Source: Pirellulaceae bacterium
GTDB lineage: Bacteria > Planctomycetota > Planctomycetia > Pirellulales > Pirellulaceae
DNA length: 34,960 nucleotides
Assembly: GCA_030748485.1 (NCBI GenBank)
Contig: JASMLW010000049.1
Span: 1 to 34,960, forward strand
Reading direction: 5' to 3'
The position numbers and the translations under genes were made by a program. The notes beneath the pieces are model-generated. The model was not told the DNA's origin and ran no database searches. It saw only the letters and a program-made list of their open reading frames with translations. Of this stretch, positions 8,032-34,960 are shown one piece after another (the first letter of the stretch is position 1; each line of letters starts with the position of its first letter).

Positions 8032-8112
8032 GCGCTCAGCTTCGCCTATGTCTCGCCGCGAGAACGCGTCGAGACTCTTGCGCCGGCAATCTGAAAAAGC
8101 TGGGCGTCTTTG

Positions 8113-8160
8113 TGGAGTTCCTGCGTGAGTTCATGCGTGAGTTCATCCGTGAGTTCCTTG
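8113..8160. repeat. 12-bp tandem repeat in the 209-bp gap between the TolC-family and PHP genes
   Basis: Four near-identical 12-bp units (consensus GTGAGTTCMTGC) follow one another. They are followed by an imperfect 10-bp duplication (TAGCTCCTTG / TAGTCCCCTT, 8161-8180). On the minus strand the units encode ELT-like tetrapeptides in a 55-codon ORF (8046-8213), which is probably not a gene. No terminator or clear promoter was recognised in this gap. Confidence 0.75.
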
Positions 8161-8240
8161 TAGCTCCTTGTAGTCCCCTTCCGCTTTTTGCGCGTTCGGG
8201 TAGACTTCTCCATGAACACGAACGAATGAAAAAAGCATGA

Positions 8241-9107: not shown

Positions 9108-9178
9108 TCGTTTGGTGTTGCCGCCTGGCTCGCTCCTCCCCCCTGCTCGCCATACGCAGTCGTTTGTAGACTGTGATC

Positions 9179-10093
9179 ATGTCCGAGCCCATTGCCTACG
9201 TCGACGGCCGCCTGCTTCCCGCGCGGGAGGCCGTGTTGCCCGTCCATGACGGCGGATTTGTGCTGGGAGTTACGGTTGCGGAACAGATCCGCACTTTCTC
9301 CGGCGAACTCTATCGACTACAGGATCATCTCGCCCGATTGGATCGGTCCCTGGAGACGATCGGCGTCGGCTGCCCGCTCGGGTCGGTTGAGTTAACCGAG
9401 CAGGCGACCGCGGTGGCGACTCACAACCACCGCCTGTTGGCGGCGGGCGATGATTTGGGGCTGTGCATCTTTGTCACGCCGGGCAGCTATCCCACGATGG
9501 CTCCGCAGGCCGCCGGCCCGCGACTTTGCCTGCACACCTACCCGCTGCCTTTCGCACAATGGGCCGACAAGTACTCGACAGGACAATCGTTGTCGATCAC
9601 TTCCGTTCGCCAGGTCCCGACGAACTGTTGGCCGGCCGAACTGAAGTGTCGCAGCCGCATGCACTACTTTCTCGCCGATCAGGAAGCTCACCGCCGTCAC
9701 GCCGGTTCGCGAGCATTGCTGTTGGACCAACACGGATTGGTTTCGGAGGCGTCCACGGCGAATGTGTTGATCTATCGAGCTGACGAGGGCCTCCTGGCTC
9801 CGCCACATGACAAGACGCTGCCGGGCATCAGCATGGCGACGGTGCGCCGCTTGGCCTCCGAATTGCAGATTCCCTTCACCGAACGCGACCTGCAACCTAC
9901 CGAAGTCGTTGAAGCGGACGAGGTGCTGTTGTCGAGCACGTCGCTCTGTTTGCTGCCGGTGACTCATTTGGATGGGCGAGCGATCGCGGGCGGAGAACCA
10001 GGTCCCGTCTTCCACCAGCTGCTGGCCGCGTGGAGCGGCGAGGTCGGCGTCGACATCGCCCACCAGGCCCGCCGGTTCGCCAACCGACCCTAG
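9179..10093 (+). CDS. Class IV PLP-dependent aminotransferase or aminodeoxychorismate lyase-like protein
   Basis: A fold-type IV PLP enzyme of the family containing branched-chain aminotransferase (IlvE), D-amino acid aminotransferase and 4-amino-4-deoxychorismate lyase (PabC). The PLP lysine is Lys156 in PAELKCRSRMHY, the position of the usual 'K..NY' motif. Glu190 in VSEASTANVLIY is the conserved cofactor-binding glutamate. The start of the fold, VDGRLLPAREAVLPVHDGGF (residues 8-27), is typical. The length (304) fits. An in-frame GTG lies 6 bp upstream at 9173, but the ATG at 9179 is preferred. It is 71 bp downstream of the PHP gene on the same strand, and its 3' end nearly touches the convergent hydrolase gene. 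Substrate cannot be decided between the three activities. Confidence 0.85.
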   Translation: MSEPIAYVDGRLLPAREAVLPVHDGGFVLGVTVAEQIRTFSGELYRLQDHLARLDRSLETIGVGCPLGSVELTEQATAVATHNHRLLAAGDDLGLCIFVTPGSYPTMAPQAAGPRLCLHTYPLPFAQWADKYSTGQSLSITSVRQVPTNCWPAELKCRSRMHYFLADQEAHRRHAGSRALLLDQHGLVSEASTANVLIYRADEGLLAPPHDKTLPGISMATVRRLASELQIPFTERDLQPTEVVEADEVLLSSTSLCLLPVTHLDGRAIAGGEPGPVFHQLLAAWSGEVGVDIAHQARRFANRP

Positions 10094-10108
10094 CGTCGTT
10101 CACCGCGA

Positions 10109-11170
10109 TCATCGATTCGCGGGGGCCGACGATTCGACCGCTGGTGTGGCGGCGACTTGATTCGGTGTGGCCGGCGAAGTGGCGGTAATTGCCGGCCCCG
10201 GAAACAGGGCCTCGCGAATCGAGTCGACCAAATCGGGAGAACGCCAGTAACTCATCTCCGCGTGCGTCTTGCCGACCCAGCCGCTGACGTTCTGCTGTGC
10301 GACGCGGGCGAAGAGCACCGGGTGGTCGTCGACGTAGAGTCCTCGATAGCCGAGCGCCTGCGGCCGCGCGCAGCGCTCGACGAATCGATATCTCTTGAGC
10401 GCCGGGTCGCAGACGTTGTAGAGGATCAGCAGATGGTCGAGCTTGGGGACGGTTGTTTCGTGGCGTTGTCCGGGTCTGAGCCAATGCGAATGGATGGCGG
10501 CCGCCAACATCACTGCGCGGGCGGAGGTCTGCTGACGAACAACACCGGCGGTCGCCAGTTCACCGCCAACAGTGGCGTCGTCGCCGTCGCCGTCAGCGAT
10601 AGTGGTCGGCAACGCGGCCCGGTCGATCGCGCCGCTAATGATTCTCGCGCCGTAGCTGTAGGAGATGAAACGCAGATCGACGTCGGGCGGCAGGCGATCG
10701 AGGAACGCGGCCATCAGCCGGGACTCAACTTCGGTGCGGGCCGCCTTGACGCGCACATCGCGGATCTGCCCTTTGACTCTGTCGCTCGGCCAGCTCCAGA
10801 TGACAAATCGAATCTGCGAATCCTCCGCCGACAGCGCGTTGAAGATCTCGTCTGCTCGTCGATCGGCCAGATAACTGGGAGTGCGGTTGCCGTGAACGTA
10901 GAAGACGACGGCGCCCGGCGTCTGCGCGAACTGCTCCCAGTCGACCTCCACCCATTGATCGTTCCGCTCCCGCTCGATCGGAGGCGGTTCGTGCGCGTTC
11001 CACGGCAGCCCCCGCGTGTTGATTCGCCACCGCGTGTTCGGTTCGGCGATCGCCGATCCAATCGTCACAAACAGAAGAACTGCGCCGCAGCACGCAACTC
11101 GCGCAATGTCCCTGCACCGCGGCGGCGGCCACGAAATAAGGGGCGAGGTGTTCTGGGGAGCTGGTGTCAT
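10109..11170 (-). CDS. Alpha/beta hydrolase, probably secreted or membrane-anchored, unknown substrate
   Basis: A 353-residue protein with an N-terminal hydrophobic segment (about residues 24-42, ending GSAIAEPN) that suggests export or membrane anchoring. The hydrolase signature is clear: an oxyanion-type VFYVHGNRTP (89-98) and a nucleophile elbow SYSYGAR (170-176) with Ser172. This layout resembles the DUF900-type alpha/beta hydrolases found in many bacteria. A GH[AT]-like acid and the late KTHAEMSYW histidine complete a plausible triad. The frame is open to an ATG at 11212, adding 14 residues (MATCDC...), but the ATG at 11170 gives a more normal signal. The gene converges on the aminotransferase gene with a 15-bp gap. 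Substrate unknown. Confidence 0.75.
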   Translation of the reverse strand: MTPAPQNTSPLISWPPPRCRDIARVACCGAVLLFVTIGSAIAEPNTRWRINTRGLPWNAHEPPPIERERNDQWVEVDWEQFAQTPGAVVFYVHGNRTPSYLADRRADEIFNALSAEDSQIRFVIWSWPSDRVKGQIRDVRVKAARTEVESRLMAAFLDRLPPDVDLRFISYSYGARIISGAIDRAALPTTIADGDGDDATVGGELATAGVVRQQTSARAVMLAAAIHSHWLRPGQRHETTVPKLDHLLILYNVCDPALKRYRFVERCARPQALGYRGLYVDDHPVLFARVAQQNVSGWVGKTHAEMSYWRSPDLVDSIREALFPGPAITATSPATPNQVAATPAVESSAPANR

Positions 11171-11262
11171 ACGGTCGGGGCAAAGGGGGTCTCGACAATC
11201 GCAAGTAGCCAATATGTAGCTTATGGAAACGGCCCTGTGTGGCGTAAAGCCAACATTCGTTC

Positions 11263-11304
11263 AAAAAAACAACGGTTGAATTTGCACATCAATAACCGTG
11301 TTGT
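11263..11304 (-). terminator. Inverted repeat with T-tract on the minus strand
   Basis: The arms ACAACGGTT (11269-11277) and AACCGTGTTGT (11294-11304, one bulged G) can pair. Read on the minus strand, the hairpin is followed by seven Ts (A7 at 11263-11269). It therefore looks like an intrinsic terminator for leftward transcripts, although no leftward gene lies directly upstream. It would shield the hydrolase gene from antisense readthrough. Confidence 0.5.
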
Positions 11305-11365
11305 AGAGTTGTTTGGCCCACAGCCTCGCCATGGTCCCCGTTGAACATTTTCCGGAGTCATTGCC

Positions 11366-11557
11366 ATGAAGAGGCTACTAATTTTGACGGCGATCGCGGC
11401 TTTAACGGTCAGCAGCGCCGGGTGCTGCCGCACGTGGAGCAACTGGTGGAATCGCGGCGCAGCCTGCGATACTTGCTACGATGGCGTTGTCTACGACGAC
11501 GTCGTCGACGATTACGGCGAGTTGCCCCCGGGGCGTCGCGAGCGCGTGAGAGAGTAG
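11366..11557 (+). CDS. Small Cys-rich lipoprotein
   Basis: A 63-residue protein with a textbook lipoprotein-type N-terminus: MKRLL, a hydrophobic stretch, and SSAGCC with the likely lipidated Cys at residue 20. The mature part is only about 43 residues. It contains a Trp-rich RTWSNWWNRG segment, two further cysteines (CDTC, residues 34-37), an acidic patch (DDVVDDYGEL) and a basic end. A GGAG ribosome-binding site lies 8 bp before the ATG, and an intrinsic terminator follows directly, so it is a monocistronic gene. Small lipoproteins of this style occur in planctomycetes; I recognise no function. Signal peptide, RBS and terminator together argue that it is real. Confidence 0.7.
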   Translation: MKRLLILTAIAALTVSSAGCCRTWSNWWNRGAACDTCYDGVVYDDVVDDYGELPPGRRERVRE

Positions 11558-11578
11558 AGTCGCAGCGTACAACATGGG

Positions 11579-11630
11579 AAAACCACCGACTTTGGCGTTG
11601 ATCCTGAGCGCCGGGGGACGGTGGTTTTTT
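11579..11630 (+). terminator. Intrinsic terminator after the small lipoprotein gene
   Basis: Perfect 10-bp arms AAAACCACCG (11579-11588) and CGGTGGTTTT (11619-11628) end in a T-run. The 30-nt loop holds a nested GGCG/CGCC hairpin. It separates the lipoprotein gene from the transglutaminase-like gene. Confidence 0.85.
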
Positions 11631-11744
11631 ATTGTCCGCGGTCTCGGCGCGGCAATTGCGGCCTGGTTGCAACTACAATGGTTGAAGCAAGTCTGCCGCG
11701 GCGGCTCACAAGGCGGTCGCCGCGTCTTCATGTGAGGAGTTGCC

Positions 11745-12743
11745 ATGCGATCGCGGCGTAGGAAAGATCTGAAATCGTTGGTCCGCCAGTCCCTCGTGAT
11801 CGCGACCACACTTCCACTGCTGCTCACCTGTTTGGCGGCGACGCCGTGCTCAGCGCAGTTCGACGGCGACAAGCCCAAGGGCGGCATTCAACTGGGACGC
11901 CCGGTGACCCAGCAATGGAAGGTCGGCGTCGAAGTGACCGCAGTCGGACCCTGCACGGGTCTGTTCGCGACGGTGCCGGTGCCCACCGATTGGCCCGAAC
12001 AACAAGTGCGGATTTCCAATGAGGAAGTTTCGCAGCAAGTTCGCCGCGTGAGCTATCGGGTGTTGGACAACGGCGTCAAACAGATGCTGGTCAGCATCCC
12101 GTTTCTCGCGCCGGGAGAATCCGCCTCCGCATTGATCACCTTTGAAGTGACGAAAGCTCCGATAACCGGCCCCAAAGAGACCGGTGCGTTCGTCGTGCCG
12201 AAACGCGTTTCGCGCGAGATTCGCCCGTTCCTCGCTCAGAGCCCCTACATCGAAGTTCGCCATTCAAAGATTCGCGCGGCGGCTCGCGAGGCGATCGGCG
12301 ACGCGGAAGGAGGCTGGCGGAAAGCGGAGACCATCTACGACTGGGTTCGCGACAAGGTTGAATATCAGGACGGCAAACTGAAGGGAGCGGCGGCGGCGCT
12401 CAAGGACGGCACGGGCGATTGTGAAGAGCTCACGTCGTTGTTCATCGCCCTGTGTCGAGTCAACAAGATTCCCGCCCGCACGGTCTGGGTGCCGGGGCAC
12501 TGCTACCCCGAATTCTATTTGCTGGACGCGGAAGGCGAGGGCCATTGGTTCCCCTGCCAGGCGGCCGGCACGCGCGCCTTCGGCTCGATGCCCGACGATC
12601 GCCCGATCCTGCAAAAGGGCGACAACTTCAGAGTCCCCGAAAAGAAGGAACGCCAGCGCTACGTCGCGGAGCTGCTGAAAGTCAAGTCGCTGCGGGGAAA
12701 TCCACCCAAAGTCCGATACGTCCGGCAACTTTTGCCAAGATAG
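11745..12743 (+). CDS. Secreted transglutaminase-like (papain-fold) protein
   Basis: A 332-residue exported protein with a signal peptide (hydrophobic 17-33, cleavage probably after PCSA at 37). The transglutaminase-like core lies at about 180-275. The nucleophile Cys226 sits in DGTGDCEELTSLFIALCR, followed by the histidine region PGHCYPEFYLLD (His252). Where most family members have Asp in the W-x-x-x-D end of the motif, this one reads GHWFPCQ, with Gln272 at the expected acid position, so the third catalytic residue is replaced or supplied elsewhere. Residues 50-140 form a beta-rich N-terminal domain. A strong GAGGAG ribosome-binding site precedes the ATG. Members of this fold act as proteases, peptide N-glycanases or cross-linkers; which applies here is unknown. 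Confidence 0.8.
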   Translation: MRSRRRKDLKSLVRQSLVIATTLPLLLTCLAATPCSAQFDGDKPKGGIQLGRPVTQQWKVGVEVTAVGPCTGLFATVPVPTDWPEQQVRISNEEVSQQVRRVSYRVLDNGVKQMLVSIPFLAPGESASALITFEVTKAPITGPKETGAFVVPKRVSREIRPFLAQSPYIEVRHSKIRAAAREAIGDAEGGWRKAETIYDWVRDKVEYQDGKLKGAAAALKDGTGDCEELTSLFIALCRVNKIPARTVWVPGHCYPEFYLLDAEGEGHWFPCQAAGTRAFGSMPDDRPILQKGDNFRVPEKKERQRYVAELLKVKSLRGNPPKVRYVRQLLPR

Positions 12744-12813
12744 TTATCGCAGCTCGAATGCCGACGAATTCGTGAATCTCGGCCCAATTGCCGGCCGCGA
12801 ACTCCGCTCGCAG

Positions 12814-12856
12814 CCGACAATTTGTGTTGTCGGACCGCAAAACAGATTCCTATACT
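12814..12856 (+). promoter_or_regulatory. Putative promoter with inverted repeat upstream of the HEAT-repeat gene
   Basis: A perfect inverted repeat CCGACAA-N6-TTGTCGG (12814-12833) overlaps a -35-like TTGTCG (12827-12832). After an 18-bp spacer comes a -10-like TATACT (12851-12856), 50 bp before the ATG. The repeat is placed where a repressor or activator would bind. Confidence 0.45.
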
Positions 12857-12906
12857 GATGAAGGTCGATCGCGAACTGCCAGGGGATCGGCTCCGAGGGC
12901 TCACCC

Positions 12907-14136
12907 ATGTATCCAACACATTTCGCCCGGCGCTCCATTCTCGCGGTCGGCCTCTGCGCATTCCTGTTGTCGATCGCAATCTCCGCCGGTCTCCGCGCCG
13001 AGACGTTTGTGCTCAGCAATGGTGGTCGAGTCGTGGGCGAGTTGCTCAATCCGGACGAGACCCCGCGAACCAAGTATGTGGTCCGCACTATGCTCGGCAC
13101 CGTGACGCTGGTTGAAAACCAGGTCCGATTGGTGCGGTCCAAGAGCGAAGCGGAAAAGTGGTACGAGCGTTGGGTCGCCAAGATGCCCGATACGCTCGAA
13201 GGCAACGTGACGATGGCGGAGGCGTGTCGTGAACGCGGTCTGACAGCTCAGCGCCGCATTCACCTCGAGAACATTCTTCGCTTCGATCCCGACCACGAAC
13301 CGGCTCGCCTGGGGTTGGGATACACCAGCATCGACGACAAGTGGGTGCTCACCGAAAGCTGGAAACGAAGTCAAGGGCTCATTCGCCATCTGGGCGAATG
13401 GCGCACACGTCAGGAAGTCGAAGTGATCGACGCCTACGATCACCGAGAAGATCGCGAAAAAGAGTGGTGGCGGCGGGTGAAGATGTGGCGGACGTGGGTG
13501 CTCAAGGGCCGCGACCGACAAGCCAAGGGACTTCAGAACATCGGCCTGATCGACGATCCGCTGGCCAGTCGAGCGATCGTCGACACGATGGAGAAGGAGA
13601 AGAACCTCGAATTCAAGAAGATCTTGATTCAAACTTTGGGTCGACTGCAAACCGGCGAGGCGGCCGGGGCGCTGATCAGTACTTCGCTCGAGCATCCGTC
13701 GGAAGCCGTCCGCGACGCCTGCCACGATGAACTCAAAAAATTCGCTCGTCACATGGCGGCCGGCGCCTACGTTTCGAAAGCCGGGTTGCAGAATTCGGAC
13801 AACAAAGTCGTCAACCGGGCCGCAGTCGGATTGGCGCGTATGAATGATCCGCAGACGATTCCTGAGTTGATCGATGCGCTCACAACCAAGCACAAATACA
13901 TCCTCAAGCCGGCCGGCGGGCAAATCAACCCCGTGTTCGGCGCCAATGGCGGTGGCGGACTCAATATGTCAGGCAAGCCGAAGATCGTGACCCGCGACGT
14001 CGCCAACCCAAAGGTCCGCGACGCATTGCTGGTGATGATTGGCGGAGTCGACTTCGAGTACAACAAGCCGCTGTGGAAACGATGGCTGGTCAACGAGTAC
14101 ACGCCCCGCAACGTGAATCTCCGTCGCGGTGAGTAG
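12907..14136 (+). CDS. Exported HEAT-repeat protein
   Basis: A 409-residue protein with a signal peptide (RRSILAVGLCAFLLSIAISA, residues 8-27, cleavage near residue 31). A short beta segment follows (FVLSNGGRVVGELL, 34-47), then a TPR-like helix pair (about 85-135, ending LGYTSIDDKWV). Residues 210-330 are HEAT-like helical pairs (for example LASRAIVDTMEKEK, EAAGALISTSLEHPSEAVRDACHDEL, NRAAVGLARMNDPQTIPELI). Such proteins usually serve as binding scaffolds. A glycine-rich loop (around 340-350) precedes the C-terminal helix. No catalytic motif is visible and no partner is evident; it is probably periplasmic. The ATG at 12907 is well placed for the signal peptide. Confidence 0.75.
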   Translation: MYPTHFARRSILAVGLCAFLLSIAISAGLRAETFVLSNGGRVVGELLNPDETPRTKYVVRTMLGTVTLVENQVRLVRSKSEAEKWYERWVAKMPDTLEGNVTMAEACRERGLTAQRRIHLENILRFDPDHEPARLGLGYTSIDDKWVLTESWKRSQGLIRHLGEWRTRQEVEVIDAYDHREDREKEWWRRVKMWRTWVLKGRDRQAKGLQNIGLIDDPLASRAIVDTMEKEKNLEFKKILIQTLGRLQTGEAAGALISTSLEHPSEAVRDACHDELKKFARHMAAGAYVSKAGLQNSDNKVVNRAAVGLARMNDPQTIPELIDALTTKHKYILKPAGGQINPVFGANGGGGLNMSGKPKIVTRDVANPKVRDALLVMIGGVDFEYNKPLWKRWLVNEYTPRNVNLRRGE

Positions 14137-14162
14137 CTGAGTAGCCACAGCTGAGTAGCCAT
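14135..14162. repeat. 14-bp direct repeat at the end of the HEAT-repeat gene
   Basis: AGCTGAGTAGCCAY occurs twice in tandem (14135-14148, 14149-14162), overlapping the stop codon. It is followed by AGCTA-rich palindromic sequence to 14182 that could fold as a weak terminator between the convergent genes. Confidence 0.65.
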
Positions 14163-14197
14163 AGCTAAGCTAGCTCTAGCTACGGCCGCCAATTCCT

Positions 14198-14223
14198 CCG
14201 GCAATCTCGCCCGGCAATCTCGC
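14198..14223. repeat. 13-bp perfect tandem duplication touching the cdsA stop codon
   Basis: CCGGCAATCTCGC is present twice without interruption; the second copy ends on the last base of the cdsA stop codon. Confidence 0.75.
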
Positions 14224-15131
14224 TAACCGGGCACCAGTTCGGCGGCCCAACACAGGTAGGCGATCGGGGCGGCGACGAGCAGTGAGTCGATCACGTCCAG
14301 CACTCCACCGAGACCGGGCATCCAGGTGCTGGAGTCTTTTTGCTCCATGTCGCGTTTGATCAGCGACTCGGACAGATCTCCAATCATGCCGGCGATCGTG
14401 AGGATGGCTCCGTACAGCAGTGGCCCCCACACGGCCCCCGAGCCGGCGTCGCCCGTCATGGCCGGCGCGATCCATTGGAAAAACACGCAGGACGCGGCGC
14501 AGCCAGTCGCCAAGCCGCCGATCGCTCCGGCGATTGTTTTCCCCGGGCTGAGTTTCGGAGCCAGCTTTCGTTTGCCGAACAGCCTGCCGAATGTGTAGGC
14601 GCCCGTGTCGGACATTTTCACGACGAGGATCAACGACACCAGCGCGGCCATTCCCGTTTGATTGCCGTCGAACGTGCGGAGGGCGATGAGAAAGATGGAC
14701 TGCACGCCGATGTACGCGACCACAAACAGGCAGACGGCGATGCGGACGATGACGCCGCCGGGTTGCTCGTATTTCCGCATCTCGGCAATGAACGCCAGGG
14801 GGACGGCGACCGCCGCGGCTCCCAGCGGCCAGCCGAGTTCTCCCAACGGACAGTCGGGCGGATACGGTTGACCGCTCAGTGGCCAGAACAGCGGTATGCC
14901 GGCTCCAATCCACACCAGAGCGACCCCGGCGTAAACGCTCCACGGCTCAGGACGCTCGGCCCGATTGTTCAGCAGGGTGAGCAATTCGTTCGCGCCGACC
15001 AAGGCGATGACCAAACCCAGTGGATAGAGCCAGGCTCCCGGCGCGGCGGCGCTCATCGAATAGTCGGCGTAGATCAAGCCGACGATCGGGACCAGAATCG
15101 CGATGGCGACCAAGATTCGCTTGTGCAACAT
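14223..15131 (-). CDS. cdsA: Phosphatidate cytidylyltransferase
   Basis: Makes CDP-diacylglycerol from phosphatidate and CTP, the branch point of phospholipid synthesis. This is a 302-residue integral membrane protein with many hydrophobic helices (for example 7-21, 35-55, 66-84, 104-115, 128-150). Conserved SDTGAYTFGRLFGKRKLAPKLSPGKT (174-199) and the CdsA C-terminal signature SLIKRDMEQKD (256-266) are present. The signature ends LGGVLDVIDS (274-283), where the E. coli-type pattern has HGG..DR.D, so the usual His and Arg are replaced by Leu and Val while both Asp residues remain. The start is 3 bp from the uppS stop codon, so the two genes form an operon with purA upstream. Confidence 0.93.
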   Translation of the reverse strand: MLHKRILVAIAILVPIVGLIYADYSMSAAAPGAWLYPLGLVIALVGANELLTLLNNRAERPEPWSVYAGVALVWIGAGIPLFWPLSGQPYPPDCPLGELGWPLGAAAVAVPLAFIAEMRKYEQPGGVIVRIAVCLFVVAYIGVQSIFLIALRTFDGNQTGMAALVSLILVVKMSDTGAYTFGRLFGKRKLAPKLSPGKTIAGAIGGLATGCAASCVFFQWIAPAMTGDAGSGAVWGPLLYGAILTIAGMIGDLSESLIKRDMEQKDSSTWMPGLGGVLDVIDSLLVAAPIAYLCWAAELVPG

Positions 15132-15134
15132 GCC

Positions 15135-15863
15135 TTAGCCGAGCCCCCCATAACGGCGATCGCGCGCGGCGAAGTCGCGTATCGCCTGGTGGAGGTGGGT
15201 CTCCTCGAACTCGGGCCAACCGACCTCGGTCACCCACAGCTCGGCGTAACTGATTTGCCAGAGGAGAAAGTTACTGATCCGCATTTCGCCGGCCGTTCGA
15301 ATCAGCAGATCGGGATCGGGCATGCCGGCTGTGTAGAGCTTGGCCGCAATACTGTCCTCGTTGATTTCGTCCAACGTCATACGTTGGTCGCGGACGTCTT
15401 CCGCGATGCTGCGAACGGCGTCCACTACTTCGGCGCGACCCCCATAGTTGATCGCCAGGCAGAGCCGCGTGCCCGGATTGATGGCGCTCATCTCAACCGT
15501 CAGGTCCATCTCGCGGAGCACGCGATCGGGAATGCCGTCGCGGCGGCCGATGATGCTGACGGAAATATCCTGCTTCATGATCGTCGCGCGTTCCTCGATC
15601 ATGTATTGCTCGAGCAAGTGCATGAGAAAGTCGAGCTCGTCTTGCGGCCGCTTCCAGTTCTCACTGGAAAGGCAATAGAGAGTGAGCTGCCCAATTTTCA
15701 GTCGAGCGCACTCTTCGACTGTGCGGCGGACGCTGGCGACACCCCGGCGATGCCCCTCGATCCGCGGCAACTCACGTTGTTGAGCCCAACGGCCATTGCC
15801 ATCCATAATGATGGCGATATGTCGCGGTCGGCGTTCTTCGGGAACCTCGAGCGGCTCAGTCAC
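15135..15863 (-). CDS. uppS: Isoprenyl transferase (undecaprenyl diphosphate synthase-like)
   Basis: cis-Prenyltransferase that extends farnesyl diphosphate to the long-chain lipid carrier used for peptidoglycan and other envelope polymers. The active-site motif HIAIIMDGNGRWA is near the N-terminus (residues 15-27) with catalytic Asp21. The C-terminal pair RISNFLLWQ and SYAELWVTEVGWPEF, which binds the diphosphate and Mg2+, is present. The frame stays open 72 codons upstream into purA, but that part is not conserved. The GTG at 15863 gives 242 residues, the normal family length (about 245), and starts 79 bp after the purA stop codon. It is followed within 3 bp by cdsA, a common pairing in bacteria. 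Confidence 0.92.
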   Translation of the reverse strand: MTEPLEVPEERRPRHIAIIMDGNGRWAQQRELPRIEGHRRGVASVRRTVEECARLKIGQLTLYCLSSENWKRPQDELDFLMHLLEQYMIEERATIMKQDISVSIIGRRDGIPDRVLREMDLTVEMSAINPGTRLCLAINYGGRAEVVDAVRSIAEDVRDQRMTLDEINEDSIAAKLYTAGMPDPDLLIRTAGEMRISNFLLWQISYAELWVTEVGWPEFEETHLHQAIRDFAARDRRYGGLG

Positions 15864-15942
15864 GGCGATCGTCGGTGGTTTGCGGGCGCAGGGCCGGTTT
15901 GTTGCTTGGCTCAGAATAACGGACGCCGAGCGCCTCGGCGAC

Positions 15943-17232
15943 TCAGTCCGGCGTCGCGAACATCGTCTGGGCTCGGTCGGGTCCCACCGAAACGATCTCG
16001 ACCGGTCGCCCAACCAGCTCGCTGACGCGGTCGAGATAGCGTCGAGCGCCGGCGGGCAGGTCGGCCAATTCGCGGACACCCGTCACGTCGACTTCCCAGC
16101 CGGGAATGGTCTCGTAGATCGGCTTGGCCCGCCTCAAATCGTCCGCGTGGCTGGGAAAATGATCGATCCGCTCACCGTCCAGATCGTACGCCACGCAGAT
16201 CCGCACCTCAGGCAACTGGCTCAACACGTCCAACATCATCACCGACAGGGCGTCGACTCCACTCAATCGCGCAGTGTAGCGAACGGCGACCGCGTCGAAC
16301 CAACCGCAGCGGCGAGGCCGTCCGGTGGTCGTCCCGTACTCATTTCCCAAATCGCGGATCCGCTGCCCCATGTCGTCATCCAGTTCGGTCGGGAAGGGAC
16401 CGCCGCCAACGCGCGTGGAATAGGCCTTGACGACGCCGATCACCCGGTTGATCCAACGGGGCGGAATGCCCGACCCCGCGCTGACACCGACACCCGAACT
16501 GTTGCTGCTCGTCACGAACGGAAACGTGCCGTGATCGATGTCCAAGAGAGCTCCTTGAGCTCCTTCGTAAAGCACCTTCTGGTTCGCTTCGACGGCGTCC
16601 AGCAGAAACGCCGTCGTGTCGGCCACGTGCGGGCGCAATCGCTCGGCGTAAGCCGCAAACTCCGCGAAGATCACTTCCGGGTCGAGCGACTCCACTTCGC
16701 CGTTGAGATTGGAGAGGATTCTCTTCTTGGCCGCCACGATTTCGTGGATTCGCTCACGGAAGTCGTCGCGGTACATGTCTCCCAGCCGAATGGCGAAATT
16801 TCGCCCTACCTTGTCGCGGTAACAAGGTCCGATGCCGCGGAGCGTCGTACCGATGCTCTCGCCGCTCACCCGCTCCGCATTCATCGCTCGGTCCTCGGCC
16901 AGGTGCCACGGGAAAACCACGTGCACTCGATCGCTGATCATCAAATTGTCGCCGACTTCCACGCCGCGCTGTTGCAGTGAGTCGATCTCGCCAAGAATCG
17001 TGGGCGGGTTCAAGACGACTCCCGGCGTCACCAGGTTGCGGACATTCGGATTGAGAATACCCGAGGGGATGTGATGCAGCTTGTAGACGTTCTCGCCGAT
17101 GACCACGGTGTGCCCCGCGTTCGCTCCGCCTTGGTAGCGGACGACCACATCGAATTGGGAGGTCAACAGATCGACGAGCTTTCCCTTGGCTTCGTCGCCC
17201 CATTGCAAACCGATGACGCAAGTTCCGGGCAC
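15943..17232 (-). CDS. purA: Adenylosuccinate synthase
   Basis: Joins IMP and aspartate with GTP to form adenylosuccinate, the first committed step to AMP. The GTP/IMP loop WGDEAKGK (residues 11-18) holds catalytic Asp13; GGANAGHT (35-42) holds catalytic His41. Most bacterial enzymes have Gly where this has Ala15. The length of 429 residues is normal. The GTG start at 17232 is preceded by GAGGGG 7 bp upstream. Together with tyrA-purL-purQ in this window, two purine loci are found here but not as one operon. It heads a probable purA-uppS-cdsA transcription unit. Confidence 0.96.
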
Positions 17233-20949: not shown

Positions 20950-21357
20950 ATGGACAATCAAAACCAGATGGATCGAGAGCCGACGGAGCGCGAGTTGGAG
21001 ATCCTCAAGATCCTCTGGCGGCGCCGTGAGGCGACAGTCCGGCAAGTGTACGAAGAGCTTCGCGAGCGGCTGCCGATCGTGCAGAACACGGTTCAAGCGT
21101 TCTTGCGAACGATGGAGGAGAAGGGATTCGTCAGGCACCGCCGCGAGGGACGGACGTTCATTTACGAGCCGACGATCGACCAATTGGCCACGTCGCAAAA
21201 CATGGCGTCGGACCTGTTGAAGCGGGTGTTTGACGGGGCGGTCGACCAGTTGGTGCAGAGCGTTTTTTCCGCCAAGCCGCCCACCGGCGACGAATTGGAT
21301 CGCCTGGAGGCGTTGATTCAGCAGCAGAAATCGAATGCTGAGGAGACGACGCCATGA
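20950..21357 (+). CDS. BlaI/MecI/CopY-family transcriptional repressor
   Basis: A 135-residue dimeric winged-helix repressor of the BlaI family. PTERELEILKILWRRREATVRQVYEEL (11-37) and the recognition segment VQNTVQAFLRTMEEKGFVRH (44-63) are typical, with the wing REGRTFIYEP (65-74). The C-terminal helices (80-130) form the dimer interface; family members are inactivated there by proteolysis triggered by their membrane peptidase. The stop codon overlaps the ATG of the downstream M56 peptidase by 4 bp (ATGA), so the pair is translationally coupled. Autoregulation is likely from the upstream palindromes. It is not necessarily concerned with beta-lactams. Confidence 0.92.
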   Translation: MDNQNQMDREPTERELEILKILWRRREATVRQVYEELRERLPIVQNTVQAFLRTMEEKGFVRHRREGRTFIYEPTIDQLATSQNMASDLLKRVFDGAVDQLVQSVFSAKPPTGDELDRLEALIQQQKSNAEETTP

Positions 21358-24275
21358 ACGAATGGATGGCTCGCGCGGCCCACCAGGCGCCGGCCCTCAT
21401 CTGCGGCTCGACAGCGATCATGGCGATCGGGATCGGCATGGCGTGCCGGTTCCAGACGGCCGTGCACCGTCAGCGAATCGCGGAGACAGCCGTGACAGCC
21501 GCATTCTTGTGGTGCGTGCTGCTGATTGTTCCGCTGCCGCGGTGGACCGGTGACGATCTCATTCCGCCGGAACCTGTGGCCGCGCCGCGGCGGAGCGCAT
21601 CGATCGAGTCGCCGCCGGAGCGTTCGGGGAGCGGGCCCATGCTGGGGTCGTTTATCGATTGGGCGCGGGGACACGTTGAGATCGACGAGTCAGCGGCGCC
21701 GCCTCAGGAAGATCCGCAGCCGGTGGCTGCTAGCACTCGCCCACAAACAGCGCAAACTCGTTGGAGTTGGCGCGGTGTGGAGTCGTATCTGAGCTGGGGA
21801 TATTTGGCGGGCGTGGGCATTTGCGGCGGCTGGTTAGTGCTGGGGCGGTTGTTGCTGACGTGGCGAGTCCACCTGGCCCGCCCGGCTCCGGATTGGTTGC
21901 AGGAGATCTACGGGGCGTTGCCGTATTCGCGGCGGCGGCCGCGTTTGGTGGTGTCGCCGCATTTCGGCTGGCCGTTTTCCTGCGGAGTGTTTTGGCAGAC
22001 GGTCGTGTTGCCGGAGGCGTATTGCCGCCGCGAGTTGTCGGACAGTTTACGGCATGTGTTGTTGCACGAATTGGTTCACGCCGAGAAGTGGGACGCGCGG
22101 GGACGATTTCTGCTCAACATTGGCTTTCCGGTTTTTTACATCCATCCGCTATACTGGCGCCTCCGCTGGCAAGCCATCTTCGACGCGGAGTTGGTCGCCG
22201 ACGATCGCGCGGCGCGACATTCGTCACTTCAACAGTACGCAAGTGGGTTAGTTCATCTGATCCGAGAAGCCGGAGCGGTGCGACCGACGTCTTGGGCCAC
22301 CTCACCGGCATACGCATCTTGGACGCAGTTCTCGAGGAGAATAAATATGCTTATGGTCCGCGAGGATCCTTTGGCTTGGCGCACGTCGAGAGTCTTTCAA
22401 TTCGTAGTGATCGTGCTAGCGATCGCCGCCTTGGGTCCGGGCGTGGCCATTTGGGGTGTGGACAGCGGGTCGTCGTCGGCGATCGGCGCGTTGCCGGACA
22501 ATTCGGCGGCTGGCCTGACGGCTCCCGCGGAGACGATCCTGCCGCCGTCGACGAAGTCATTTTTCTCGATCCCGAACCTCAAGAAGACGGGCGACGCCTG
22601 GCGGAGGACTCAGCTGGGCAAGCTGACGCAGGATCCGTTGATGAAGCCGTTCATCGAGGATCTGGACAAGCAGATCGACGAGAAGCTGGCGGAGACGAAA
22701 ACTCGCCTAGGAATCACTTGGGAAGACGTCAAGGAGATTTACGCCGGGGAGATCTGTTTAGCGACGGTTCAGCCGGACGGCGACGCCAAGAAATTCGGCA
22801 TGGTGCTGGTGATCGACGTGACGGGCCGGGACGACCAAGTGGCGGCGTTACTCAAGAAGATCGACGCGGGAATGCGGAGCCGCAAGGCGGAGCGGAAATC
22901 CTCGACGGTCGCGGGAGCGTCGGTGGTGTCGCACACGTTGCCGCGTGAAAAGGGCGAGCGAATCCGCCGCCAATCGCTGCACACCCATTACAAAAACCGT
23001 CTCATCGCGACCGACGACGCGGGAACGTTGTCGGCGATCATCGCCAGCATCAACGGCGACGGCGATCAGCAACTGGGCGACTCCAAGGCGTTCCGTTTCT
23101 GCCTGTCTCGCGCCAACGAGTTGGCGAAGAACAAGCCGCACGTTCGTTGGTTCATCGAACCGTTGGGATTTGCTCAGGTGAATCAAGCGGCCAAGTTGGC
23201 CGGCAAGCGGCGGCGCGGGAAAGATCGAGTGGCCGTTCTTCAGAAGCAGGGCTTCTCGGCGGTCGCGGGAGCGGGGGGCGTGATTCTCTTCGATCAGGGG
23301 AGCTTGGACGCGCGGTACCACGCCTACGTTTACGCGCCCGCCCGGAAACGCGAATTGGCCGTTCGTATTCTCGACTTCCCGAATTCGCTCAACCCCACGC
23401 CTCCCGCGTGGCTGCCGGACACGATGGGATCCGCCTTGTCGTTCAATTGGAAAATGCTCAACGCGTTCGACGCCGCCGAGACACTCGTCAACGCGATGGC
23501 GGGCGACGAGATTTGGGAGGACTTGTGGGACAGCATCAAGAACGATCCCAACGGTCCCATGATTGACGTGCGCCGCGACCTGATCAGTCAGTTCGACGAT
23601 CGCGTCCACGTCGTCACGAAGACCAAGACGCCGATCGACGTGGACAGCGAGCAGACGCTTGTCATCATTAAAGTTCGCAACGAGCAACTCGTCGCCAAGA
23701 CGATCGCCGACGCCGTGCGCCGCGACCCGACCGTCACTAAGAAATCTCACCGCAACCGCACGATCTGGCACATCGACGTCGACGCGGCGGACGACGAGGA
23801 CGAAGAAGAAGAGGAGGGCGACGAGCGGCTGATCCGCCACATGGCGATCACGGTGACGAAGGGTTATATCCTGGCTGGCTCCGACTTGGAGATCTTGCAC
23901 GCCGTGATTGACAACATCGACGGGGAGGGCAATGCGCTCAGCGCCTCGGAGGACTACAAGAACGTCGTGGCTTCCTTGGAGAAACTCGGGGCCAAGTCGG
24001 ACAGTTTCCGCGCCTTCGCTCAGCGCAGCGACACGTACCACACGAACTACGAACTGTTGCGACAGGGCAAGCTGCCGCAAGCCGAAACGATGCTCGCCCA
24101 GTTCGTCGGCTCGATCTTCGCCGGCGGAGGGGACCGCGATCCCGATCGCGAGCAAGAGATCGACGGTTCAAAACTGCCTCCCTTCGAGAGCGTGAAGAAG
24201 TACTTTCGTCCGGGCGGATTCTTCGTGCAGACCGAAGACGACGGCTGGGTCTTGTCAGGCGGCGTCGTTCGCTAG
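21354..24275 (+). CDS. M56-family (BlaR1-like) membrane metallopeptidase with a large C-terminal extracytoplasmic domain
   Basis: A 973-residue protein, the partner of the BlaI-type repressor. Membrane segments lie at about 13-31, 47-62, 145-169 and 347-367. The zinc peptidase motif HELVH is at 238-242 and a downstream Glu ligand at 279 (DAELVADD). In BlaR1 this domain is intracellular and cleaves or causes cleavage of BlaI. The C-terminal part (about 370-973) is far larger than the penicillin-binding sensor of BlaR1 (about 260 residues). It has no SxxK motif that I can place, and instead shows DUF3352-like features, a mixed alpha/beta pattern ending in an acidic run (DDEDEEEEEGDE). The signal it senses is unknown. 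Confidence 0.8.
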   Translation: MNEWMARAAHQAPALICGSTAIMAIGIGMACRFQTAVHRQRIAETAVTAAFLWCVLLIVPLPRWTGDDLIPPEPVAAPRRSASIESPPERSGSGPMLGSFIDWARGHVEIDESAAPPQEDPQPVAASTRPQTAQTRWSWRGVESYLSWGYLAGVGICGGWLVLGRLLLTWRVHLARPAPDWLQEIYGALPYSRRRPRLVVSPHFGWPFSCGVFWQTVVLPEAYCRRELSDSLRHVLLHELVHAEKWDARGRFLLNIGFPVFYIHPLYWRLRWQAIFDAELVADDRAARHSSLQQYASGLVHLIREAGAVRPTSWATSPAYASWTQFSRRINMLMVREDPLAWRTSRVFQFVVIVLAIAALGPGVAIWGVDSGSSSAIGALPDNSAAGLTAPAETILPPSTKSFFSIPNLKKTGDAWRRTQLGKLTQDPLMKPFIEDLDKQIDEKLAETKTRLGITWEDVKEIYAGEICLATVQPDGDAKKFGMVLVIDVTGRDDQVAALLKKIDAGMRSRKAERKSSTVAGASVVSHTLPREKGERIRRQSLHTHYKNRLIATDDAGTLSAIIASINGDGDQQLGDSKAFRFCLSRANELAKNKPHVRWFIEPLGFAQVNQAAKLAGKRRRGKDRVAVLQKQGFSAVAGAGGVILFDQGSLDARYHAYVYAPARKRELAVRILDFPNSLNPTPPAWLPDTMGSALSFNWKMLNAFDAAETLVNAMAGDEIWEDLWDSIKNDPNGPMIDVRRDLISQFDDRVHVVTKTKTPIDVDSEQTLVIIKVRNEQLVAKTIADAVRRDPTVTKKSHRNRTIWHIDVDAADDEDEEEEEGDERLIRHMAITVTKGYILAGSDLEILHAVIDNIDGEGNALSASEDYKNVVASLEKLGAKSDSFRAFAQRSDTYHTNYELLRQGKLPQAETMLAQFVGSIFAGGGDRDPDREQEIDGSKLPPFESVKKYFRPGGFFVQTEDDGWVLSGGVVR

Positions 24276-31315: not shown

Positions 31316-33406
31316 CTACGCCACCGCGGCCGCTTCCGTGCGCAACGGCAACCGCAATTTGAACCGCGCGCCGCTGCCACGCCCTTCGCTTTCGACGGTC
31401 AGCGAGCCACCCATCTCCTTGGCGGCCAGCGCGGCGCTGTGCAGTCCAAATCCATGGCCGCCTTGCTTCGTTGTGAATCCGTGACGAAAGATGCGGTCGA
31501 GGTTCTCTTGCAAAATGCCCACGCCGTTGTCGACGACTTCCAATTGGAAGTCGTCGTCATCTCGCTTGACGATCAGTTCGATGTGGCCGTGGACTGACGT
31601 GTTTTCCTGCACGGCTTGTTTGGCGTTGGCAACCAGGTTGATGAGGATCTGGAGCAACTTCTGTTTGTCGAGCGTCACTTCAGGCAGCTCGCTGTAGTTG
31701 CGCTCGACAACGATCTGATGACGTTCCAGCGAGGCGCTGTTGATTTGGACGGCGTCCTCCATCAACTCGGCTACAGAAACGGGTTGCGCCATACCGGACG
31801 AACCGGCGTAGGATTGCTGCGTCGCCACGATGTCTTTGATGTGGTCGATTTTCTTGGTCAGAGAGGCGACCTTTTCCATCACGGTTTCGCGTTCCTGGTT
31901 CAGCACCTTGCCGGCCTCGATGAGGTAGTTTGGCAGGTGTTTGCCGCGCGGATCGTCAGCGATGAAGGTCGACAGGTTGGGCAGGTTTTGTTCGACGATT
32001 CCCAGCACGCGACCCAAATCGTTCACTTCTGAATTGCGAACGGTTTCGCTAATCAGCGAGGCGGAAACATTGACGCTATTGAGCACGTTGCCGACGTTGT
32101 GGAGCACTCCGTTGGCGACTTCCGCCATGCCCGCTTGGCGCGAGATATCCACCAGCCGCTCGTTCATGTCCTGGAGTTTCTCGGCAGCCTCGTTGGCGGC
32201 GGTCAGATCGCGGATAAAGCCGGTGAATACTCGACGATCGAACAGCCGGAACTCGCTGACAAACAACTCCAACGCGAACTCGGATCCATCCTGGCGGCGT
32301 CCTTCAAACTCAACTTGCCCCCCCATGATTTGCGTTTCACCGGTCTCGGCGTAGTGCTTGACGAAATTCCCCCGGTCGGCGTACTGGTTCGCCATCAGCA
32401 CATTAACTTCAGCGCCGAGCACTTCGCTCGCCTTATAGCCGAACATCTTCTCCGCCGCCGGGTTGAATGACTCGATCGCGCCCCGTTCGTCGACGGTGAT
32501 GATCGCATCGAACGCGCTGTCGACGATCGCGCGAACGCGTTTCTCGCTTTGCTTGAGTTCGTTGTGGACGCGAGCCCGCTCTTCGATTTCGTTCTTGAGC
32601 TGATCGTTGGCGATCGACAGCTGCTCAGTGCGTTTTTGAACGCGCTCCTCCAGCTCGTTGTTAGCGGCTTGCAATTGCGTGTGAGTTTGATGGATTTCTT
32701 CGTCGGCCATTTGGATGCGGTCGAGCATGCCGTTGAATTGATCGTAGAGATCGCCGATTTCGTCGTCCGACGTCTTCTCAACTCGAATCGAATAGTTGCC
32801 TTCCGACGAGATCTGCTTGGCCGCACCGGCCAGTTGGAGGATTGGTCCCGAGATGAATCGCTGCAGTCGCGAAGCCAACAGCACGGCGACCACCAGCGAA
32901 GCGATCAGCACACTGGCCGCGATACTGGCGTGGGTGTAGAGCTGATTCTTAAGGTCCGTCATGGCGGTGTGCATGTAGAGCGTGCCCAGTTCCGTACCGT
33001 CTTCCTCGAGGACCGGCATCGCGATGTCGAGAAACCCGGTCTTGGTGAAGTTGGAGCCGTGCTGAGGTCGCGGCGGCGGATCGAACTGGGCGTCGGCGTC
33101 GCGGCGGAACTCGGCGAACAAGTTCCCGTCGGAGTCGTACAGGCAGGCGAAGTGCACCGTCGGCCGACTTCCCAGCGAGGCCAGCAGTTCCTCGGCGGCC
33201 ATTGGCTGATCGAACGCCAACGTGGCCGTGCTGTTCGAGGCGATCACCCCACCCAAGGCCGACAGCTGGCGGATCTTGGATTGCCGTATCGAACTCCAGT
33301 CGTTGACAAAGAACGCCACCGTCGACAGGAGCAATGCGATGCCGCTGGAGACCGCGGTCAGCATGGTCAGCTTGCTGTTGATGGATTGGCCTTGAATGAG
33401 GTTCAT
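31316..33406 (-). CDS. Sensor histidine kinase with CHASE8-like periplasmic domain, HAMP and PAS
   Basis: A 696-residue membrane kinase. TM1 is at about 14-35 and TM2 at 161-180, enclosing a periplasmic domain (about 36-160). Its STATLAFDQPMAAEELLASL and CLYDSDGNLFAEF segments resemble CHASE8, the domain of the diguanylate cyclase YfiN/TpbB. HAMP follows (179-231), then a coiled coil (232-288) and a PAS domain (288-405). The phosphoacceptor region is GVLHNVGNVLNSV with His436, an H-x-x-x-N type. The ATPase domain has an N box (LINLVANAKQAV), DNGVG (627-631) and HGFGLH (651-656). No response regulator is next to it. It is 40 bp after the YfiR-family gene, so it is probably the third gene of the operon. 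Confidence 0.9.
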   Translation of the reverse strand: MNLIQGQSINSKLTMLTAVSSGIALLLSTVAFFVNDWSSIRQSKIRQLSALGGVIASNSTATLAFDQPMAAEELLASLGSRPTVHFACLYDSDGNLFAEFRRDADAQFDPPPRPQHGSNFTKTGFLDIAMPVLEEDGTELGTLYMHTAMTDLKNQLYTHASIAASVLIASLVVAVLLASRLQRFISGPILQLAGAAKQISSEGNYSIRVEKTSDDEIGDLYDQFNGMLDRIQMADEEIHQTHTQLQAANNELEERVQKRTEQLSIANDQLKNEIEERARVHNELKQSEKRVRAIVDSAFDAIITVDERGAIESFNPAAEKMFGYKASEVLGAEVNVLMANQYADRGNFVKHYAETGETQIMGGQVEFEGRRQDGSEFALELFVSEFRLFDRRVFTGFIRDLTAANEAAEKLQDMNERLVDISRQAGMAEVANGVLHNVGNVLNSVNVSASLISETVRNSEVNDLGRVLGIVEQNLPNLSTFIADDPRGKHLPNYLIEAGKVLNQERETVMEKVASLTKKIDHIKDIVATQQSYAGSSGMAQPVSVAELMEDAVQINSASLERHQIVVERNYSELPEVTLDKQKLLQILINLVANAKQAVQENTSVHGHIELIVKRDDDDFQLEVVDNGVGILQENLDRIFRHGFTTKQGGHGFGLHSAALAAKEMGGSLTVESEGRGSGARFKLRLPLRTEAAAVA

Positions 33407-33446
33407 GCCGGTCGTCCTTGCCCCTGGCGCCTTTGGTTAGCGGCGG

Positions 33447-34016
33447 TTAGTTGCCCTTGATGATATCGGCGAGATTGAGCAGTTTGGCGTTGACTTGCAG
33501 CTGCCGCCGCATCACGACGCCGATATTGATCTCGATGGCGATCGAAGTGTTGGGTCGCATCTGAAAATTGACCGGAGCGCCTTGCTTGGCCCCGCCCGGC
33601 ACCTCGCCGACGACGAGAATAGGACGTCCGGCTGAAGCCCGGACTACAGCCTGAGTCATCGCCGGATCGTTCTTAGAGACGAACAGAATGTGGCAATCGG
33701 CGCAGGCCGGCGCCCATCTTTGAAACTGCTGGATGATGATCGACCGACCGTTCGCTTTCCGCTTGGCGGCGATCTTGTCCAGCTTGTTCCCAAACGGATT
33801 CTCGCCGACGACGCCGATCACCACTGGGGACGTTTTGTTCTGGAAAGCGCCGGCGGGCCAGGTGACGTAGCGAGCCAAGTTGTACAAGTAGGCCGCCTTG
33901 ATCGAGTACTCGCGGTTCTGCGCATAGCTGCTCGCCGGAAACGCCAGCAACATGGCGGCCGCCAGGATAGTGGCGATCCCTGCGCGCAAGCCGGTTATTT
34001 TCTGCTTCGGATCCAC
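33447..34016 (-). CDS. YfiR-family (DUF4154) periplasmic protein
   Basis: A 189-residue protein with a signal peptide (hydrophobic 11-30, cleavage after SSYAQ). The rest matches the YfiR/DUF4154 fold: IKAAYLYNLARYVTWPAGAF (39-58), IGVVGENPFG (67-76), CADCHILFVS (105-114, Cys105 and Cys108), RPILVVGEVPGG (131-142), and IEINIGVVMRRQLQVNAKLLNLADIIKG (161-188). In Pseudomonas, YfiR binds and inhibits YfiN in the periplasm and responds to redox. Here it lies between a TonB-dependent receptor (21 bp upstream) and a kinase with a YfiN-like sensor domain, so the kinase is its likely target. The ATG at 34016 gives a good signal peptide. Confidence 0.88.
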   Translation of the reverse strand: MDPKQKITGLRAGIATILAAAMLLAFPASSYAQNREYSIKAAYLYNLARYVTWPAGAFQNKTSPVVIGVVGENPFGNKLDKIAAKRKANGRSIIIQQFQRWAPACADCHILFVSKNDPAMTQAVVRASAGRPILVVGEVPGGAKQGAPVNFQMRPNTSIAIEINIGVVMRRQLQVNAKLLNLADIIKGN

Positions 34017-34037
34017 GTAGTCGGTCCGCCCCTGCCG

Positions 34038-34960
34038 TTAGTAGTTGAGAGTGGCCATGCCGTACACGCCACGCTCCACCTCGGTACCGATGCCCCCAGT
34101 GAATGCTTCACCCACGAACTCCAAGTGTTGGCTGTCCAGCAGATTCTGGCCCACCAACGAAAGCTCAAGATTCTCATGCGCCCACCAACCCAGCCGGACG
34201 TTGAGATCGACGTAGCTGGGTACATTGAAAACGGGCAAGTCCTCCACATAACGCAACATGAAGTCCAGTTGAACGTCGCTACCCACGTCACCTGACAACA
34301 TGAGATAGGCCTGATTGCGGGGCGCTCCGCCCTCCAGACGGCCCGACGTTACGGACGGTGATGAGTTGATACGCAGGAAACTGTAGTTTCCGTACAAGTC
34401 CCAGCAATCGTTGATCGCGTAGTTGATCGCCACTTCGACGCCGTACGATTCAGCATCCATCGCGTTGGTCAGCAGCAGCGCCGTCGGGGGCGCCGGCGGG
34501 CCCACCGGTACAACGCCGATTGCATGATTGTATTTGTGGTAGAAGGTGGCGATATCGAATGAGAAGTACTCTGATACCTGCGAGCGATATCCGAGTTCGT
34601 AGGCGATCAATTCTTCGCTGATCACTCCCCGATGTCCCGCCAGCGTGGCGAACACGCCTGGAGTCGTGGTCAACGAACGGAGGAACACGTCGTCTTCGAC
34701 TCGGGTCGGGCGTCGGATGGCGCGCGACACAGCGCCCCAGATCGATTGCGTTTCAGTCGGGTTCCAGACAAGCCGTCCGCTCGGCTGATACTCGAAACCC
34801 GTGAAGTCGTTTTCTTCGAACTTTGATCCGACCGTGAAGAACAGTGTGTCGTCGACCAACTCAATTTCGTCCTGCACGAAGAAGCTGATCGTGTCCAGCG
34901 TGCGTTCGGTGGGCGCGATCGTGATCGCGAACGGATTCACTGCTCGAAACAGATCCTTGC
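34038..34960 (-). CDS. TonB-dependent receptor, C-terminal part (cut by the window end)
   Basis: Only the C-terminal 307 codons are visible; the frame is open to the right edge, so the signal, TonB box and plug are outside. The visible part is beta-barrel: alternating amphipathic strands with aromatic girdles, such as TLFFTVGSKFEENDF, SQVSEYFSFDIATFYHKYNHAIG, and the TonB C-terminal pattern NLELSLVGQNLLDSQHLEF leading to GVYGMATLNY. The last residue is Tyr, rather than the more usual Phe, but aromatic as the assembly machinery requires. A GTG at 34940 is a within-gene codon, not a start. The receptor would import a siderophore, glycan or cofactor; the ligand is unknown. It is followed by yfiR- and kinase-like genes 21 and 612 bp on. 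Confidence 0.88.
   Translation of the reverse strand, partial: KDLFRAVNPFAITIAPTERTLDTISFFVQDEIELVDDTLFFTVGSKFEENDFTGFEYQPSGRLVWNPTETQSIWGAVSRAIRRPTRVEDDVFLRSLTTTPGVFATLAGHRGVISEELIAYELGYRSQVSEYFSFDIATFYHKYNHAIGVVPVGPPAPPTALLLTNAMDAESYGVEVAINYAINDCWDLYGNYSFLRINSSPSVTSGRLEGGAPRNQAYLMLSGDVGSDVQLDFMLRYVEDLPVFNVPSYVDLNVRLGWWAHENLELSLVGQNLLDSQHLEFVGEAFTGGIGTEVERGVYGMATLNY

Follow-up and report, generated by a model that had tools for sequence, protein, structure and literature searches.

The window analysed here is the whole of contig JASMLW010000049.1 (C49, 34,960 bp) of a Pirellulaceae bacterium, part of an 8.7-Mb Planctomycetota metagenome-assembled genome (MAG, G000) that is 96% complete, with 6.2% contamination. 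At one end of the contig, three genes on the minus strand encode a TonB-dependent receptor, a periplasmic protein of the YfiR family and a sensor histidine kinase, with gaps of 21 bp between the receptor and YfiR genes and 40 bp between the YfiR and kinase genes (Table 1). This arrangement, described in an earlier note made from the sequence alone, was confirmed, except that only the C-terminal half of the receptor gene lies in the window.

Table 1. Features of the operon and of the genes elsewhere in the genome that are discussed with it.
Feature	Position	Strand	Length	Description
Sensor histidine kinase gene	31316..33406	-	696 aa	Transmembrane segment, CHASE8, transmembrane segment, HAMP, coiled coil, PAS, HNVGN-type phosphoacceptor, HATPase; no receiver domain
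CHASE8 domain	32975..33283	-		Kinase residues 42-144; corresponds to the periplasmic PAS domain of YfiN
Phe65 codon	33212..33214	-		Counterpart of E. coli YfiN Phe70 in the alignment (within AAVVF, the proposed contact with YfiR)
His436 codon	32099..32101	-		Predicted phosphoacceptor (HNVGNVLNSV)
YfiR-family protein gene	33447..34016	-	189 aa	Periplasmic, DUF4154, TOL_0243-like
TonB-dependent receptor gene, C-terminal half of barrel	34038..34960	-		TOL_0244-like; frame 34038-34958, open at contig end
Receptor gene, N-terminal half	G000:C518:8164-9110 (L044)			Plug domain; contig C518 is 9110 bp
Orphan receiver-HD-GYP gene	G000:C54			Flanked by hisS and an aminotransferase gene; both the HD and the GYP motif are intact; predicted cyclic di-GMP phosphodiesterase
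Receiver-kinase gene	End of contig C252			Second DDxxxIHxDF receiver

Composition and conservation of the gene set

Pfam assigned the YfiR gene to DUF4154/YfiR (4.7e-37), the receptor part to TonB_dep_Rec (2.2e-25) and parts of the kinase to HAMP, PAS and HATPase_c. The periplasmic part of the kinase, which the earlier note had likened to CHASE8, was placed in that family by the profile search (8.5e-14, 52.1 bits, cut-off 27). The curated cut-offs of two NCBIfam models were also passed, by the kinase N-terminus for HK_near_YfiR_like (NF053592; 206.6 bits, cut-off 194) and by the YfiR protein for YfiR_like_TOL0243 (NF053591; 135.3 bits, cut-off 125). The kinase has the expected motifs, all intact: a predicted phosphoacceptor, H436 in HNVGNVLNSV, N590 in the N-box, and the G-boxes DNGVG at 626 and GGHGFG at 649. 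The YfiR protein begins with an apparent signal peptide (...FPASSYAQ), and its AlphaFold2 model (54 sequences, predicted local distance difference test score of 91) was best matched by P. aeruginosa YfiR, with a template modelling score of 0.75 by target.

The receptor is best matched by a third NCBIfam model, TonB_dep_TOL0244 (NF053590; 604 positions), of which the part in the window covers positions 314-597. The remaining positions 11-301, with the Plug domain, were found at one further place in the genome, the extreme end of contig C518. From this complementary coverage the two halves are probably one gene, broken at contig ends that share no overlapping sequence; they score 365.9 and 219.5 bits on the two contigs, with about 12 positions missing (cut-off 645); the scores of three relatives from the phylum range from 623 to 674 bits. 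A likely signal peptide of the receptor (L044:7617-8110) is in another frame than the plug domain, which may reflect a frameshift, an error in the sequence or another start site.

The expectation that the three genes stay together in relatives was borne out, and the gene set is conserved. Loci were annotated by profile matches and codon scoring. A YfiR gene is present in 45 of 392 Planctomycetota genomes, and 51 of the 59 YfiR genes of this phylum have a CHASE8 kinase gene no more than 2.5 kb away and in the same orientation. The order receptor-YfiR-CHASE8 occurs at 30 loci and is the commonest arrangement among these 51 pairs, which were not chosen by receptor. When named genomes were searched with the receptor alignment, 80 loci were obtained, which are the best matches and not a random sample; in 54 of them YfiR is directly downstream and 50 are complete receptor-YfiR-CHASE8 sets. 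The loci belong to Acidobacteria, Nitrospinota, Nitrospirota, Verrucomicrobia, Deltaproteobacteria/Desulfobacteria, Alpha- and Gammaproteobacteria, Planctomycetota, Armatimonadota, Bacteroidota and Gemmatimonadetes, about ten phyla in all. The co-occurrence of the two inner partners was also seen in 229 Gammaproteobacteria genomes, where CHASE8 and YfiR are both present in 27, CHASE8 alone in four and YfiR alone in five (Fisher test, 6e-26). Upstream of YfiR at three loci (L075, L083 and L098), two related genes stand in the receptor's place, one of which was checked and encodes an M14 zinc carboxypeptidase, together with a protein of about 390 aa with no Pfam or NCBIfam match.

Phe65 and the presence of YfiR

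On the basis of suppressor genetics, YfiR has been proposed to bind the periplasmic domain of YfiN at the stretch AAVVF, which is centred on Phe70 (Malone et al., PMC3375315). With E. coli YfiN as the reference, this stretch aligns with ATLAF of the window kinase, Phe65 being identical to Phe70. The conservation of this residue, named as a contact site beforehand by Malone et al., depends on the genomic context: Phe was found in 95 of 98 CHASE8 proteins with YfiR adjoining and in all seven with YfiR near, in four of nine with YfiR elsewhere in the genome and in two of nine from YfiR-less genomes. The difference between the first and the last group (Fisher test, 1.6e-7) is overstated by this raw value, because the independent contrasts described below are few. 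Nine other conserved CHASE8 positions (e.g., L68 and G134, segment numbering) are kept in all groups alike. The Gammaproteobacteria gave the same picture, with Phe in 25 of 26 proteins with YfiR as scored by script (26 of 26 by eye, since the sequence of L271, scored as non-Phe, shows LFFGDE at the motif) and in one of four without YfiR, the other three having Leu. This pattern is what a direct binding of YfiR to CHASE8 predicts, and a YfiR-CHASE8 contact is thus supported by a predicted contact residue whose conservation follows the presence of YfiR. A Foldseek search with the CHASE8 model retrieved nothing more specific than extracellular sensor domains of the PAS/Cache type, which leaves the support as it was.

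Kinase output and candidate regulators

The domains that follow CHASE8 vary. The 69 aligned Planctomycetota CHASE8 proteins include HATPase in 63, a receiver in 45, Hpt in 11 and the signalling domain of methyl-accepting chemotaxis proteins (MCP) in five, and in two Gammaproteobacteria loci (L186 and L214) the CHASE8 protein is a GGDEF-EAL protein. The model NF053592, named 'sensor histidine kinase, YfiR-like protein-associated', passes on one of the latter (L186:9534-11591, 202.4 against 194) and may misname CHASE8-GGDEF-EAL proteins. A fusion of CHASE8-HAMP to the MCP domain was observed in L115, L124, L089, L140, L141 and L178; several of these adjoin YfiR and receptor genes, L115 in the order receptor-receptor-YfiR-CHASE8-MCP, which suggests that such proteins may be YfiR-controlled chemoreceptors. 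The input side varies as well: L125 (G352, 6680-16841) carries three tandem receptor-YfiR pairs and then a single CHASE8 kinase, and L227 has two such pairs before one kinase. In another genome (G427), nine YfiR genes and just two CHASE8 matches were counted. An apparent receptor-YfiR fusion in L087 was rejected as an assembly or frame artefact, the frame crossing a run of unknown bases, and no YfiR-CHASE8 fusion was found.

In many relatives the kinase gene is followed by a REC-GGDEF-EAL or REC-HD-GYP gene (REC, receiver). A gene for a GGDEF, EAL or HD-GYP protein, the enzymes of cyclic di-GMP (c-di-GMP), lies within 2.5 kb after the kinase at 16 of 87 loci, and within the same length before the receptor at one of 62 (Fisher test, 0.001). 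Thus, a kinase output does not exclude a c-di-GMP output, and the idea of the earlier note that a phosphorelay is used instead of c-di-GMP is doubtful, also because the likeliest partner of the window kinase is itself an orphan REC-HD-GYP protein.

The phosphoacceptor motif of the window kinase, HNVGNVLNSV, is shared with few relatives only. Among the loci, the kinase most similar to it is that of L097 (41% identical); the gene after this kinase encodes a REC-HD-GYP protein with the receiver motif DDNEAIHEDF. Receivers with DDxxxIHxDF occur in the 2.57 Mb of loci only near HNVGN kinases, besides those taken from the window genome by similarity; the subtype adjoins such kinases in L097, L169 and L255 and also in two Variovorax plasmids. 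The plasmids were the only close matches of the kinase core among 72,556 searched, and in each the kinase is directly followed by a DDxxxIHxDF receiver with an EAL domain. A search of the window's genome with the kinase core gave a single close match, the kinase itself (606 bits, the next 50); it is the only kinase of HNVGN type there, and the genome also holds 14 GGDEF matches. The response regulator that the earlier note suggested seeking was missing upstream of the receptor on C518, where translation indicated oxidoreductase-like, rhamnulokinase-like and sulfate-assimilation-like genes and no regulator gene. Elsewhere in the genome the DDxxxIHxDF subtype was found exactly twice, on C54 and C252. 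Since a single HNVGN kinase faces two matching receivers, the kinase is predicted, by elimination, to work on the REC-HD-GYP protein of C54, the likeliest partner, and/or the REC-kinase of C252.

A possible relay from the cell surface and its alternatives

We consider it somewhat probable that the operon works as a relay from the surface to the cytoplasm, running from the receptor through YfiR and the CHASE8 kinase to a response regulator. YfiR, secreted to the periplasm, would bind the inner-membrane kinase at its CHASE8 domain, via the Phe65 patch, and keep the kinase in one signalling state, presumably off by analogy with YfiN. The receptor, encoded first, would occupy the place of YfiB in Pseudomonas, and ligand binding or transport by it would alter free YfiR, most simply by sequestration at the outer membrane, so that the kinase switches. 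The released kinase would then phosphorylate a regulator encoded elsewhere, most likely one or both of the candidates on C54 and C252. By sequence, the nearest solved receptor is the colicin I receptor Cir, which takes up catecholate siderophores; this likeness is a hint at the ligand and does not identify it.

Several observations weigh against the relay. A tree-based test of the link between Phe65 and YfiR found five well-supported independent contrasts, with Phe and YfiR together in about 2.3 of them and practically never opposite (p about 0.5), so that the phylogeny-corrected support is weak, and the CHASE8 orphans are partly more distant relatives. In the window YfiR, the position of YfiR Phe162 is taken by Ile, and another position, Phe in 87 of 98 homologues, is taken by Gly. 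The regulator match relies on motif pairing and on elimination within an incomplete MAG. Finally, 26 of the 80 receptors of the TOL_0244-type family have no YfiR directly downstream, and YfiR-CHASE8 pairs exist with no such receptor adjoining (L075, L083, L088 and L098), and so the receptor may be a passenger.

This last point is also an argument for a rather unlikely alternative, in which YfiR and the CHASE8 kinase would by themselves sense the state of the envelope or redox conditions, as in YfiR/HmsC control, with the receptor as a co-regulated target or a neighbour that does not feed the switch. YfiR is indeed redox-sensitive in Pseudomonas (PMC4655355). However, the Cys145-Cys152 disulphide pair, which stabilises YfiR, has no conserved equivalent in 98 homologues, and the Cys71 position is Cys in only 25 of them (the Cys110 position in 70), so that redox control of the Pseudomonas type appears unlikely in that form. 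Moreover, a receptor directly upstream is the commonest arrangement, and the repeated receptor-YfiR cassettes ahead of one kinase (L125 and L227) were counted as support for the receptor as input.

It is still less probable that the YfiR-regulated kinase controls its own receptor operon, and thereby nutrient uptake, via a DNA-binding or single-receiver regulator and not c-di-GMP. Single receivers follow several non-hybrid relatives (L080, L084, L104 and L131), and L097 is also followed by an OmpR-type regulator; yet no DNA-binding regulator adjoins the window operon or lies upstream on C518, and the matching receiver subtype of the genome is attached to HD-GYP or a kinase. The operon is very unlikely to stem from contamination or from a recent transfer that may have left it without function: the level of contamination of the MAG and the eight sampled genomes of the same family, seven without YfiR and one with YfiR but no kinase, would allow it, but GC content and GC content at third codon positions are similar to those of the rest of the contig, frames and kinase motifs are intact, and the same assembly holds both matching receivers and, on C5, another receptor-YfiR pair.

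The operon resembles the YfiBNR/TpbB system of P. aeruginosa (HmsCDE in Yersinia, YfiR-DgcN-YfiB in E. coli) in the YfiR fold, the CHASE8/PAS domain with the proposed contact Phe, the HAMP domain next to it and the adjoining genes. It differs in having a histidine kinase (PAS and HATPase, no GGDEF by Pfam) where YfiN has GGDEF, a TonB-dependent receptor where YfiBNR has the OmpA-like lipoprotein YfiB, and a YfiR that lacks the disulphide pair. YfiB is absent from the operon, whose neighbours are the receptor and a convergent S41 protease gene; a genome-wide search for it was not made. The earlier note knew of no characterised system with this composition; a kinase in the place of GGDEF is, however, no novelty. 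CHASE8/YfiN[PAS] with GGDEF-EAL, Hpt, sensor kinase, hybrid kinase or MCP outputs beside YfiR was reported in silico by Malone et al. (2012, PMC3375315), so that the replacement of GGDEF by a kinase and other outputs is already known, with conserved contact residues; in those divergent systems the outer-membrane input is YfiB or absent, and TonB has no occurrence in that paper. NCBIfam families exist for all three genes, as names only, no described function having been found for NF053590, NF053591 or NF053592. Our literature searches, with subscription journals largely outside their scope, found no paper linking a TonB-dependent receptor to YfiR. Three elements are, we believe, new: a TonB-dependent receptor that recurs as the partner at the outer membrane where other systems have YfiB, a proposed contact residue whose conservation depends on YfiR, and a signal that probably returns to c-di-GMP.

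In the known form of signalling by TonB-dependent receptors, the receptor carries an additional domain at its N-terminus and an anti-sigma factor is required. In FecA-FecR-FecI, a TonB-dependent receptor is likewise proposed to signal to the cytoplasm, whereas the receptor studied here has no STN domain (its N-terminal half has Plug only) and no adjoining FecR or sigma factor. More tentatively than for the operon itself, we suggest that, across about ten phyla, receptor-YfiR-CHASE8 sets could represent a general class of signalling through TonB-dependent receptors, in which a receptor without signalling domain titrates a diffusible periplasmic repressor, receptor-YfiR cassettes share a transducer, and outputs (kinase, GGDEF-EAL, chemoreceptor) are exchangeable and often lead back to c-di-GMP via a phosphorelay. 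Such recurrence suggests a widespread signalling route from the cell surface to the inside. If YfiR is the messenger, receptors without signalling domain could also report to kinases, chemoreceptors and c-di-GMP enzymes, and in YfiR systems the envelope-stress input YfiB would be replaced by an input at the outer membrane that is specific for a ligand. Both ends of the relay can be tested, one through the Phe65 rule and the other through the regulator named above.

The second receptor-YfiR pair of the genome (L002, G000:C5:17955-18401; also L121) has no kinase and is followed by a gluconolactonase/SMP-30-like gene; its receptor barely matches the TOL_0244-type profile. Elsewhere in the window, a plus-strand gene (21354-24275) encodes a protein of 973 aa that combines an M56 peptidase domain of BlaR1 type with a match to DUF3352, and is preceded by a 135-aa gene (20950-21357) that overlaps its start.

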